Part shown: piece by piece, positions 41,865 to 47,062 of the stretch
How positions within the stretch are numbered: the first letter of the stretch is position 1
Layout of the letters: the number at the start of each line of letters is the position of its first letter
Origin: Thermoleophilaceae bacterium
Lineage (GTDB): Bacteria > Actinomycetota > Thermoleophilia > Solirubrobacterales > Thermoleophilaceae
DNA: 64,000 bases
Direction of reading: 5' to 3'
Assembly (NCBI GenBank): GCA_040901445.1
Contig: JBBDYQ010000004.1
Span: forward strand, 1 to 64,000
The notes under the pieces: model-generated
The model's input: only the letters and a program-made list of their open reading frames with translations
What the model was told of the DNA's origin: nothing
The model's database searches: none
Program-made: the position numbers and the translations under genes

Positions 41865-43489
41865 CGTCCGGAGCCCCGGCGGCGGCGCCTCCCGCGCGCC
41901 GCCGTCTCCCCCGGTTCGACGGCTGGGCCGCCGCGGGGATGGTCGTGGCGCTGCTCGTGGCGGCGCCACTGCTGGTCCTGCCGGGCGCGTTCCTCGATCC
42001 GCGCGTGGACGTCTGGTGGGGCGTGACGGGCGGCATTCTCCCCGAGGTCCTGCTGAACACCGCGCTGGTGGGCGGCGGGGTGGGGGCGGGCACCTTCGTG
42101 CTGGGCACCTCGCTGGCGTTGCTGGTGTCCTTCTATGAATTCCCCGGCCGGCGCGTGCTCGACTGGGCGCTGATCCTGCCGCTGGCCCTTCCCGCGTACG
42201 TCATGACCTTCGTGTACCTCGGGCAGGCCGGATTCGACCTCCCGCTGCGCACCACCGGCGGGGCGGTCGCGATCCTCACGCTCGCGCTCTACCCCTACGT
42301 CTACCTGCTGGCGCGGGCGGCGTTCCGCGGCCAGTCGGGGAACGTGATCGAGGCTGCCCGCAGCCTGGGCGCCGGCCGTCTGAGCGCGATCGTGCGGGTG
42401 GCCCTGCCGATGGCACGACCGGCGCTGGCGGCGGGCACGCTCCTGGCCGTGATGGAGGCCCTGGCCGACTTCGGCTCGGTGCAGCTGCTCGGCGTGAAGA
42501 CCTTCACCGTGGCCATCTACCAGGTGTGGTTCGGCGCCTTCGACCGCCTGGCCGCCACCCAGCTCGCCACCCTGCTCATGGGGCTCACGCTCGCCCTGTT
42601 CGCGCTGGAGCGCCTGGCCCGCGGGCGCTCGCGCTTCGAGCAGCAGGCGGGCCGCGCGGCCGGGGTCGCGCGTGTGAGGCTGCACGGGCCGCGCGCGTGG
42701 CTGGCCGCGGCGTTCCCCACGGCCGTACTGGCGGTCGCCTTCGTCGACCCCGTCGCGCAGCTGGTGGTCTGGTCCTTCTCCTCGCTCGACGAGCCGCTCG
42801 TGCGCTCGGGCTTCGGCACCTGGGCGCGCAACAGCATCGTGCTGGCGGTTGTGGCGGCGCTGGTCGCGGTGCCGGTGGCGATGACGCTCGTATACGGGCT
42901 GAGGGTGGCGCCGTCGCGGGTGGGCCGTGCCGCCACGCGGGTGGCGTCGGTGGGCTACGGCGTGCCGGGCTCGGTTGTGGCCGTGGCCGCGCTGGTGTCC
43001 CTCGCGTGGGTGGACCACCGGCTGCAGGACGCCGGCGCCCTCGTCGGCATCTCGCTGGGCCTGCTGCTCACCGGCACGGCGCTCGGGCTTGTGTTCGCCT
43101 ACGTCGTGCGCTTCCTCGCCCTGGCCTTCCAGAGCCTCGAGTCCCAGATGGCCCGCCTTTCCCCCAACCTCGACGCCGCGGCCCGCAGCCTCGGCGCCGA
43201 CCGCCTCGAGGTCATGTGGCGCGTGCACATGCCGCTGATGCGCGTGGGTCTGCTGGTGGCCGGGCTGCTCGTGTTCGTGGAGACGATGAAGGAGCTGCCC
43301 GCCACCGTGCTGCTGCGTCCGTTCGGCGGCGACACGCTGGCGGTGGCCGTGTGGCAGTCCACCACCGAGTCGCTGTGGGAGGCCGCCGCGCTGCCCGCGC
43401 TCGCGATCGTGGCGGTGGGGCTGCTGCCGGTGGTCCTGCTGATGCGGGTGCTCGACCGCACGGGCAGGCGCGACCTCGTCGGGGGCTAG
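41855..43489 (+). CDS. fbpB: Ferric iron ABC transporter permease (double-domain FbpB/SfuB-like)
   Basis: A permease of about 544 residues with two fused six-helix halves. Each half has an EAA-type loop: EAARSLGAGRLSAIVRVALP in the first and AAARSLGADRLEVMWRVHMP in the second. This two-in-one architecture and about 540 residues are normal for ferric importers. The GTG at 41855 overlaps the binding-protein stop region by 10 bases; the frame is open upstream but inside that gene. VETMKELPATVLLRPFGGDT near the C-terminus is a strong iron-permease signature. No ATPase gene follows. Confidence 0.9.
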   Translation: MGVASGAPAAAPPARRRLPRFDGWAAAGMVVALLVAAPLLVLPGAFLDPRVDVWWGVTGGILPEVLLNTALVGGGVGAGTFVLGTSLALLVSFYEFPGRRVLDWALILPLALPAYVMTFVYLGQAGFDLPLRTTGGAVAILTLALYPYVYLLARAAFRGQSGNVIEAARSLGAGRLSAIVRVALPMARPALAAGTLLAVMEALADFGSVQLLGVKTFTVAIYQVWFGAFDRLAATQLATLLMGLTLALFALERLARGRSRFEQQAGRAAGVARVRLHGPRAWLAAAFPTAVLAVAFVDPVAQLVVWSFSSLDEPLVRSGFGTWARNSIVLAVVAALVAVPVAMTLVYGLRVAPSRVGRAATRVASVGYGVPGSVVAVAALVSLAWVDHRLQDAGALVGISLGLLLTGTALGLVFAYVVRFLALAFQSLESQMARLSPNLDAAARSLGADRLEVMWRVHMPLMRVGLLVAGLLVFVETMKELPATVLLRPFGGDTLAVAVWQSTTESLWEAAALPALAIVAVGLLPVVLLMRVLDRTGRRDLVGG

Positions 43490-43550: not shown

Positions 43551-43567
43551 GGGCCGCTTCGCGGCCC
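43551..43567 (-). terminator. Hairpin at the 3' end of the LPXTG-type gene
   Basis: GGGCCGC-TTC-GCGGCCC lies at the stop codon of the leftward gene at 43567-44034. It may end that transcript. Confidence 0.4.
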
Positions 43568-44034
43568 TACCGGGGCTCTTCGTCCACGGCCTTGCGCAGC
43601 GCCACGCCCGTGGCCAGGGTGGCCGCGCCGATCGCCGCGGTGGCCGCCGTGTCGAGGCCGGTGAACGGCAGGGCGTCGCCACCGGCCACGCCGCCTGCCG
43701 CCGTGGCGCCCGCCACGCCGGACTCGTCGCCGGCCTCGCCGCCTTCGGCCGTGACGCCCTGCACGGCACCCTCGCCGCCTTCGGCCGGCCCTGCGGCCTC
43801 GGTGCCCAGCACGGCGCCCTCGCCGCCCGCTGAGCTGCGCACCTCGATGCCGCCCACCCCGCCGCCACCGCCGGGCGAAGCGGGCGCGGTTGCGAGCAGC
43901 GCGCCGCCGCCCGCCACTCCGAGCTGTCGCATGAGCATCGGCGCAGCGTCACCGGTGAGCTGCGTGAGCGTGCCGTAATCCTCGATGTGCGGCTCTTCGT
44001 ACCGACGAGCCGCGCCCCCTGCCCTGTCTTCCAT
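43567..44034 (-). CDS. Lasso-RiPP-leader-like protein with C-terminal LPXTG sorting signal
   Basis: A 155-residue protein. Residues 12-27 read YEEPHIEDYGTLTQLT and fit the lasso-peptide leader pattern (Tyr, Pro three residues on, then Gly and Thr) recognised by RRE/B1 proteins. The middle (40-118) is low-complexity Gly/Ala/Glu. The end carries LPFTG (122-126), a 20-residue hydrophobic helix and RK, a sortase-type signal, followed by an acidic tail. There is no N-terminal signal peptide, which a sortase substrate would need. No lasso B, C or E genes and no sortase lie nearby. AGGAGG sits in the loop of a small hairpin just before the ATG at 44034. Function unknown; it may be a modified surface peptide or only a leader look-alike. 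Confidence 0.65.
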   Translation of the reverse strand: MEDRAGGAARRYEEPHIEDYGTLTQLTGDAAPMLMRQLGVAGGGALLATAPASPGGGGGVGGIEVRSSAGGEGAVLGTEAAGPAEGGEGAVQGVTAEGGEAGDESGVAGATAAGGVAGGDALPFTGLDTAATAAIGAATLATGVALRKAVDEEPR

Positions 44035-44035
44035 G

Positions 44036-44053
44036 TGCGACCTCCTGATCGCA
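44036..44053 (-). promoter_or_regulatory. Ribosome-binding site in hairpin loop
   Basis: On the minus strand, TGCGA-TCAGGAGG-TCGCA places the Shine-Dalgarno AGGAGG in an 8-base loop closed by 5 bp, ending just before the ATG at 44034. Loop display may favour translation or allow control by a binding protein. Confidence 0.4.
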
Positions 44054-44118: not shown

Positions 44119-45096
44119 ATGCTCGAGCCCCGCCTCGACAACCGGCCCTGCGGGGGGCGCTACGGCGACATCGTGCAGGCGATCGGCAACACGCCGCTCG
44201 TCGAGCTCAAGCGGCTGTCGCCCAAGCCCGGGGTGCGAGTCTGGGTCAAGCTCGAGAGCCACAATCCCACGGGCTCGGTCAAGGACCGCGTTGCCCGCGC
44301 GATGATCGAGGAGGCCGAGGCCGCCGGCGCCATCCGCCCGGGTCAGACCATCCTCGAGCCCACGTCGGGCAACACCGGCATCTCACTGGCCATGATCTGC
44401 GCCCGCAAGGGCTACCCGCTCGAGGTCGTGATGCCGGACAACGTCACGGAGGAGCGCACCCAGCTCCTGACCATGTACGGCGCGAAGATCACGAACTCGC
44501 CCGGCGAGCAGGGCTCCAACGGCGCCGTGGCCAAGGCGCTGGAGATGGCCGAGGCGGACGCCCGCTACTACATGCCGTACCAGTACGGGAACGAGGCCAA
44601 CCCGCGCGCCCACTACGACGGCACGGCGGTCGAGATCCTCGAGGAGCTCGACGAGGTGTCCGCGTTCGTGGCGGGGCTCGGCACCGGCGGCACGCTCATG
44701 GGCAACGGCCGCCGCTTCAAGGAGGAGAACGACGACACGCTGATCGTCGCCGCCGAGCCGCTCCAGGGCGAGCTCGTGCAGGGCCTGCGCTCGCTCGACG
44801 ACGGCTTCATCCCCCCGATCATCGACCTCACCCTCCTGGACCGGAAGATCTTCGTGTCCAACCGCGACGCGGTGGTGTGGACCAAGAAGCTGCTCGCGGA
44901 GGAGGGGCTCTTCGCCGGCGTCTCCACCGGCGCCGTGGCCGCCATCGCCGTGCGCGTGGCGAGGAATCTCGACGAGGGCAACGTCGTCTTCGTGGCCCCC
45001 GACGGCGGCTGGAAGTACCTGAGCTCCGGCGTCTACTCGAAGACGATCGAGGAGCTCGAGGCGGACGGCACCCTGGAGTCCGCCGCCTTCTGGTAG
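44119..45096 (+). CDS. cysM: CysO-dependent O-phosphoserine sulfhydrylase
   Basis: A 325-residue PLP enzyme of the cysteine synthase family, close in length to mycobacterial CysM (323). PLP lysine Lys55 is in NPTGSVKDRVA; phosphate-binding TSGNTGIS and GTGGTLMG are present. The block QGLRSLDDGFIPP carries the Arg used for O-phosphoserine recognition in CysM rather than CysK. The C-terminal extension reaching the active site (YLSSGVYSKTIEELE) is also CysM-like. The ATG at 44119 lies 10 bases after TACACT (44103-44108). It is divergent from the LPXTG-type gene and separated from CysO by the iron importer. Confidence 0.93.
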   Translation: MLEPRLDNRPCGGRYGDIVQAIGNTPLVELKRLSPKPGVRVWVKLESHNPTGSVKDRVARAMIEEAEAAGAIRPGQTILEPTSGNTGISLAMICARKGYPLEVVMPDNVTEERTQLLTMYGAKITNSPGEQGSNGAVAKALEMAEADARYYMPYQYGNEANPRAHYDGTAVEILEELDEVSAFVAGLGTGGTLMGNGRRFKEENDDTLIVAAEPLQGELVQGLRSLDDGFIPPIIDLTLLDRKIFVSNRDAVVWTKKLLAEEGLFAGVSTGAVAAIAVRVARNLDEGNVVFVAPDGGWKYLSSGVYSKTIEELEADGTLESAAFW

Positions 45097-45747: not shown

Positions 45748-46862
45748 AGACAGAGCAGGTGAACATCCGCCTCGAGCCGGCCACCCTGGCCGCCCTCGAA
45801 CACGTGGCCCGCGCGGAGTCGCTGGATCGCGGCACCGTGATCAGGCGCTTCATCGAGTCGTCCATCTACGGGTGGCAACTCGACCGTGCCATCGAGGGTT
45901 ATCGCCGCGGCGAGTTGACAGTCGGCCGCGCCGCGGAGGAGGCGGGGCTCTCGCAGTGGGAGCTGATCGACACCGTCAGGGAGCGCGGGATCGCGTACCC
46001 CCTGGAGGCGGAAGAGATCCGCGAATGGGCAGCCGCCGGCGACATGTCGAGCGGAGCGGAGACGCTGCCGGTGAGGCCACCGGCGCCCGGCGGGGTGCTT
46101 CTCGTGGGCATCAACCCTGCCCCGGCGTCGGTGGCGGCCGGCCACTACTACCAGGGCCGCCTCGGCAAGCGGCTGTGGAGGACGCTGGAGCGTTGTGGCC
46201 TGCTGGACTCGCCCGTCCCGGGCGCGGAAGACGATGCGTTCGTGCAGGCCGGCAACGGGCTGGCCGACGTGGTCCGCAGAGCCACGGCGTCGGCTGCGGA
46301 GCTGACCAGGGAGGAGCTTCAGGCGGGTGCGGCCGAGTTGCGGGAGGCCATGGCGGAGTGGCGGCCGCGTCTAGTGCTCTTCGTGTTCAAGGGCGCGGCC
46401 GTCGCCGTCCTTGGCACGAAGGCGGTCAAGCCCGGCCGCGGGCCGGAGGTGGACGGCGTCCCCTCGTTCCTGCTGGCCCCGCCCTACGAGAGTCGCGAGC
46501 GGGCGCGGGGGGTGGAAGCGGAGCTGACGGAATTCGCCGGTGGCGAAGGGGAACGGCAAGCCGGTGTCTCCGGTGGCGGGGCCGAGGAGGACCGCAGCCA
46601 GACCGTCACGCAGCGCGATCGCGACGACGGTCGCATCCGCTTCCCCGGTTCCGCCAAGCCCTTCTTCCCGCACGAGCGGGGGCAGGTCGAGGTCGTGCTG
46701 CGAGGCACTCGCCTCAGCGGCCGGTGGGATCCCCGCTTCGGCCCTGACAGGGAGCGCTCAGGGGTCCTGTGCGTCGACGGGGCCCGGCTGCGGGGGCTGG
46801 TCGGCGCGGACGAGAGGCTCCGCGTCTCGCGGGGCCTCGGCGGCGTGGTCAGGCTCGACTAG
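45744..46862 (+). CDS. UPF0175-type antitoxin fused to a Mug/uracil-DNA-glycosylase-like domain
   Basis: A 372-residue, apparently three-part protein. Residues 1-40 look like a ribbon-helix-helix (VNIRLEPATLAALEHVARAE); 42-95 match UPF0175 antitoxins (AIEGYRRGELTVGRAAEEAG, LSQWELIDTVRERGIAYPL). Residues 117-262 match mismatch-specific uracil-DNA glycosylases: VLLVGINPAPASVAAGHYY as motif 1, then NGLADVVRRATASAAELTRE, EWRPRLVLFVFKGAAVAVLG. Residues 298-372 form an unassigned small beta-type domain (VEVVLRGTRLSGRWDPRFGP). UPF0175 proteins normally stop near residue 90. There is no stop codon between parts; an internal ATG (46044) without a ribosome-binding site could yield a separate glycosylase. 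It overlaps the PIN toxin gene upstream and converges on tatA. Confidence 0.78.
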   Translation: MKTEQVNIRLEPATLAALEHVARAESLDRGTVIRRFIESSIYGWQLDRAIEGYRRGELTVGRAAEEAGLSQWELIDTVRERGIAYPLEAEEIREWAAAGDMSSGAETLPVRPPAPGGVLLVGINPAPASVAAGHYYQGRLGKRLWRTLERCGLLDSPVPGAEDDAFVQAGNGLADVVRRATASAAELTREELQAGAAELREAMAEWRPRLVLFVFKGAAVAVLGTKAVKPGRGPEVDGVPSFLLAPPYESRERARGVEAELTEFAGGEGERQAGVSGGGAEEDRSQTVTQRDRDDGRIRFPGSAKPFFPHERGQVEVVLRGTRLSGRWDPRFGPDRERSGVLCVDGARLRGLVGADERLRVSRGLGGVVRLD

Positions 46863-47062
46863 GCGTTCGCCGCGCGCTTGCGCTCGCGGTCGCGCTCTTC
46901 GTCGTCGTCCTCGTCGTCGTCGGAGGACATCGTGAGCGCGTTCTTGAACTCGCGGATGCCCCTGCCTATCGAGCGTCCAGCGTCCGGCAGGCGCTTGGGC
47001 CCGAGGACGAGCAGGGCGATGATCAGGATGACGACGAGCTCGAGTGGTCCGATGTTCGGCAT
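46859..47062 (-). CDS. tatA: Sec-independent protein translocase subunit TatA
   Basis: A 67-residue TatA. One N-terminal transmembrane helix (GPLELVVILIIALLVLGP) is followed by the hinge PKRLPD and the amphipathic helix AGRSIGRGIREFKNAL, then a highly charged tail of Asp/Glu and Arg/Lys. It forms the pore-type component of the twin-arginine translocon, exporting folded proteins. It is last in a three-gene minus-strand set after a cupredoxin lipoprotein and a Tat-signal peptide gene. It overlaps the antitoxin-glycosylase gene by 4 bases tail to tail. Confidence 0.95.
   Translation of the reverse strand: MPNIGPLELVVILIIALLVLGPKRLPDAGRSIGRGIREFKNALTMSSDDDEDDDEERDRERKRAANA

Follow-up and report, generated by a model that had tools for sequence, protein, structure and literature searches.

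A lasso-type leader joined to an LPXTG sorting signal in a short protein of a Thermoleophilaceae bacterium

The window analysed here, 64,000 nucleotides of contig JBBDYQ010000004.1 from a Thermoleophilaceae bacterium (GCA_040901445.1), a soil bacterium of uncultured type, encodes a protein that joins a lasso-type leader to a Gly/Ala-rich body and an LPFTG sorting signal (43567..44034, on the minus strand like all of its parts; 155 residues plus stop, from translation). Judged by its sequence, this protein is a chimera of a lasso leader and a sorting signal, not a lasso precursor. Leaders of ribosomally synthesized and post-translationally modified peptides (RiPPs) are thought to direct the production of small modified peptides; here, the lasso leader may act as a maturation tag on a non-lasso, wall-anchored protein, a reading we put forward tentatively and to which we give somewhat less than an even chance. 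Together with a homologue from another family, two examples establish the architecture, but not its function.

The translated open reading frame (ORF) reads YEEPHIEDYGTLTQLT at residues 12-27, and its leader motif YEEPHIEDYGTLTQLTG (residues 12-28; 43951..44001) shares a register with 26 other leader peptides, in which Y12 falls at position −17, P15 at −14, I17 at −12, a glycine at −8 and T27 at −2. In published work, recognition by B1 and removal of the leader are assigned to Y−17, P−14, L/I−12 and T−2 (PMC10368454), and the chimeric protein has the complete lasso-precursor set (Y−17, P−14, L/I/V−12, T−2). We scored the leader with a matrix of 17 columns built from 23 other leaders, from which the chimeric protein and its homologue were excluded to avoid circularity. 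It obtained 39.6 bits and the leader of the homologue 48.4 bits, within the leave-one-out range of the training leaders (29.8-57.5 bits), whereas the highest clear chance match among 1,006,689 six-frame positions, located within a 497-residue frame, reached 21.8 bits. The leader lies far beyond chance and is a true lasso-type leader. In profile searches, the E-value of the chimeric protein itself is not independent, since the sequence was part of that alignment; the homologue, which was absent from it, was recovered at E 1.3e-7.

The C-terminus (LPFTGLDTAATAAIGAATLATGVALRKAVDEEPR) has the composition of a sortase substrate, an LPxTG motif followed by a hydrophobic helix and a basic tail. The LPFTG motif occupies residues 122-126 (43657..43671) and precedes a weakly hydrophobic helix with an RK tail (residues 127-155; 43570..43656; hydropathy 1.62), modelled with low confidence as helical over residues 126-151. 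The structure model as a whole is mostly unconfident (mean predicted local distance difference test score, pLDDT, 47), and the Gly/Ala-rich body between leader and motif (residues 29-121; 43672..43950) is predicted to be disordered (pLDDT under 50 for residues 33-124). Short LPFTG proteins are numerous in relatives, many of them with evident Sec-type N-termini. For comparison, we took seven signal-peptide-bearing LPxTG proteins from the same genome and from relatives as hydropathy controls. Their best 12-residue values within the first 60 residues were 2.1-2.9, as against 1.56 in the chimeric protein and 1.06 in the homologue, and hydropathy thus gave no indication of a signal peptide in either. 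A Tat signal at the two arginines in positions 10-11 was considered and rejected, as YEEPHIED comes next and no hydrophobic stretch. Translation from an internal start at Met33 or Met35 would yield a weak signal-like stretch in the chimeric protein and none in the homologue. The preliminary description of this ORF, made from the sequence alone, had combined a lasso-leader-like N-terminus with an LPXTG C-terminus and noted the lack of a signal peptide; the translation, the matrix scores and the hydropathy comparison bear it out on these points.

An order-wide leader-profile search (232 genomes) returned one further fusion, L133, in the metagenome-assembled genome (MAG) G144 of another family. 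It comprises 140 residues, begins with GTG after AGGAGG and carries the leader YEGPQIKDYGTVAELTA, which is followed by a Ser/Thr/Gly/Pro-rich body, LPYTGLD, a helix and ARRFSRK; an LPxTG motif followed by LD is common to both fusions. The sole homologue retains leader and sorting signal together, so that the check proposed in the preliminary description did not turn up what it had named as a refutation, homologues devoid of both motifs, and we consider the combination real because a bacterium of a second family shows it too. The G144 genome also contains a sortase, and the gene neighbours of its fusion are unlike those in the window. The only match in a scan of a genome collection was to the Solirubrobacterales MAG RYN_259, on a contig that seems to be the G144 record. 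No further fusions were found in the class sample, the other order searched or the phylum sample, and no relatives of the chimeric protein on plasmids or in viral contigs. Most matches in a full-length search of relatives were to other proteins and fell on the C-terminal sorting signal or on low-complexity sequence, and searches of Pfam and NCBIfam yielded no family matching the 155-residue protein. One other candidate for an LPxTG-bearing leader peptide, L094, was set aside, as its 'LPVAG' lies within a 19-residue lasso core and is a chance match.

Core positions 1-9 after the leader read DAAPMLMRQ in the chimeric protein and AHQLFSGMP in the homologue. As both are devoid of Asp or Glu at positions 7-9, neither fusion should form a lasso ring. 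An acidic residue at core position 7, 8 or 9 is present in 23 of the 26 other leader peptides collected (counted in the standard register, with one spurious pattern match in L075 set aside), the exceptions being L102, L124 and L128. The latter two (YESPQIADYGSISAHTF and YEAPEIADYGSIADHTF) have a DKF.E.S.P-like ending in common and perhaps represent another type of leader-guided peptide, and L102 (YESPSLTDLGTVEDLTQ), with a follower of 41 residues, is perhaps a further non-lasso user of the leader.

Leader searches in the same genome uncovered more short ORFs with the leader motif, three on contig C15 and one each on C22 and C25, and these lasso precursors share YE.P.[IV].DYG. The three on C15 surround a lasso cluster composed of an ABC-2 permease, a PqqD-like B1 with a Pfam E-value of 3.7e-14, whose closest relative of solved structure is TbiB1 (E 2.1e-10), a protein with weak likeness to HPr kinase, a B2 (lasso_biosyn_B2, 63.2 bits versus a cut-off of 33) and an asparagine-synthase-type cyclase matching Asn_synthase. 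This is the only B2 we found in the genome, which has one complete B1/B2/cyclase set. It also has a single sortase (C1:144801-145163), whose best model is class E, with a score below that model's cut-off. The chimeric gene, on contig C4, thus does not share a cluster with B1, B2 and cyclase as a lasso precursor would. Two precursors, the orphans on C22 and C25, are located outside the cluster, which suggests that it is normal in this host for substrates to be encoded in trans. Across genomes, a B2 above the cut-off occurs in 16 of 18 that bear the leader and in 8 of 61 relatives in general, which supports a link between the leader and the lasso machinery. The genome survey proposed in the preliminary description, for the RiPP recognition element (RRE) protein B1, B2 and sortase, therefore had a positive outcome. 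It was correct that none of these genes lies near the ORF, but the hint that the cell might be without them was wrong; processing of an orphan elsewhere is plausible, given a lasso cluster and a sortase on other contigs, whereas a lasso precursor is unsupported for want of a ring acceptor. Overall, its interpretation is partly supported.

The lasso cluster merits mention in its own right. Its stretch of C15 (L070:8782-14233, genome G000) contains the precursor cores ASGAVGGEDGAGK..., ATGLFGSEDGG... and ASGFSGPEDGG... and two weakly HPr-kinase-like genes. If the orphans on C22 and C25 are counted, a single B1/B2 set may act on five lasso peptides. The C22 orphan (L071 near 8600; C22:304583), with the core GGELLGQEDGG, is located directly upstream of a tyrosine-recombinase-like gene near the contig end, possibly in a mobile element.

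If the leader is a maturation tag, B1 would bind it in trans by its RRE, and B2 would cut after Thr27-Gly28 to remove it. Export of the linear 127-residue remainder could then proceed by way of the lasso ABC exporter, a partner protein or the weak signal segment within the sequence; the class E-like sortase would link this remainder to the wall between Thr and Gly of LPFTG. Several observations weigh against such a path. The terminal helix has a hydropathy of 1.62 in the chimeric protein and 1.52 in the homologue, versus 2.2-2.8 in the seven controls; neither the hydropathy comparison nor inspection of the sequence gave a Sec or Tat signal peptide, hence no export route is visible; and neither fusion gene adjoins its supposed machinery. 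In the G144 MAG (75% complete), one of the two exceptions among the 18 leader-bearing genomes, no B2 was detected and the leader-profile search found no other significant leader peptide. The missing B2 matters because G144 holds one of only two fusions, and with two examples selection on the combination of leader and sorting signal is not demonstrated. The more far-reaching claim, that the two fusions represent a new class of surface proteins for which lasso leader and B1/B2 were recruited in trans for maturing and exporting a wall-anchored protein that is not cyclised and has neither a Sec nor a Tat signal peptide, is doubtful at present. A lasso leader on a protein that is marked for the wall but cannot become a lasso would imply that ordinary proteins, too, can be processed by a reused leader and protease, perhaps with this serving as a route of export. 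The chimera also offers a clean test of the substrate needs of B1 and B2, apart from ring closure.

Two other explanations deserve weight. The fusion could be a recent chimera or a decaying remnant, in which recombination joined a lasso leader to the 3'-terminal part of a gene for a sortase substrate and the two have no joint function. We regard this as rather unlikely, since both frames are open and intact, follow strong ribosome-binding sites and have lost none of the leader and sorting residues, and since the same order of parts recurs in two families. It would nevertheless account for the occurrence of the fusion in only 2 of 232 genomes of the order, for the non-conserved neighbourhood, for the weakened C-terminal helix and for the third-position GC content of 0.87 (0.82 and 0.64 at the first and second codon positions), which compares with 0.92-0.98 in neighbouring genes. 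Also unlikely is that the leader serves for docking or as a decoy, binding B1 and recruiting or titrating the lasso machinery, while the protein remains intracellular or tail-anchored in the membrane and LPFTG is idle. The perfect RRE-binding positions in front of a body that cannot be cyclised would fit this role, as would the weak C-terminal helix and the lack of a signal peptide in both examples. Yet LPxTG-LD is kept in both fusions and matches the secreted LPFTG proteins of relatives, which is hard to explain for an idle motif, and G144 has no detected B2 to recruit.

We consider it improbable that the protein is an ordinary Sec-exported sortase substrate that starts at Met33 or Met35, with MRQLGVAGGGALLATAPA as a weak signal peptide cleaved before SPGG and the leader arising by chance or as a long n-region. 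The internal Met has GGTGAC upstream of it, and after it come a basic residue, a short run of non-polar residues and a site resembling AxA, but the leader score is far above chance and the hydropathy of 1.56 well below that of true signal peptides in relatives; in the homologue, such a segment is missing (hydropathy 1.06), as is a basic n-region. Moreover, the best ribosome site belongs to ATG 44034, a start supported by the Shine-Dalgarno sequence AGGAGGT (44040..44046, minus strand) five bases upstream. A longer GTG frame (231 residues) is ruled out by this strong site and by its overlap with the divergent cysteine synthase gene. An alternative start that adds a signal peptide, which the preliminary description had named as a refutation, is thus possible only through the weak internal start, which the homologue lacks. 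Finally, it is very improbable that a different RRE system reads the leader or that the protein leaves through Tat or Sec alongside a signal-bearing partner: actinobacteria-centred work has proposed partner export of signal-less tail-anchored proteins and supported Tat-dependent sortase substrates experimentally (PMC10924467), but no candidate partner was identified.

The chimeric gene is solitary. On its 3' side lies the 3' end of an opposite-strand ABC-type permease gene (frame ending at 43489), and on its 5' side a divergent cysteine synthase frame, which starts near 44119 and runs to 45096, both named from reading their sequences. About 2.8 kb away, an ORF at 46859-47062 (minus strand; MPNIGPLELVVILIIALLVLGPKRLPDAGRSIGRGIREF) resembles a TatA/TatB-type translocase subunit, probably a coincidence. 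A search of the window against Rfam found nothing.

In the abstracts and term counts covered by our literature search, we found no description of a protein that combines a lasso leader with a sorting signal; each part is known, and their joining is new as far as these sources go. The N-terminal leader, with Y−17, P−14, I/V−12, G−8 and T−2, is like those of the lasso precursors of the same genome (C15 cluster, C22, C25) and of NCBIfam NF033521 (lasso_leader_L3), a model that scores below its cut-off for both fusions and also for the lasso precursors tested. Unlike these precursors, whose cores of 24-31 residues carry Glu8/Asp9, the chimeric protein has a follower of 127 residues, no acceptor at 7-9 and an LPFTG end. 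Its C-terminal part is like the LPxTG sortase substrates of the order (e.g. L003, L005, L012, L016, L018) in LPFTG(L)(D/E), helix, basic tail and low-complexity linker, but these have clear Sec signal peptides, whereas the chimeric protein starts with a lasso leader and its helix is less hydrophobic. It further resembles the Tat-dependent or partner-exported tail-anchored sortase substrates (PMC10924467) in its C-tail sorting signal and in that post-translational export is possible, and differs from those tested, which have twin-arginine signal peptides, in that its arginines at 10-11 precede YEEPHIED and not a hydrophobic stretch.
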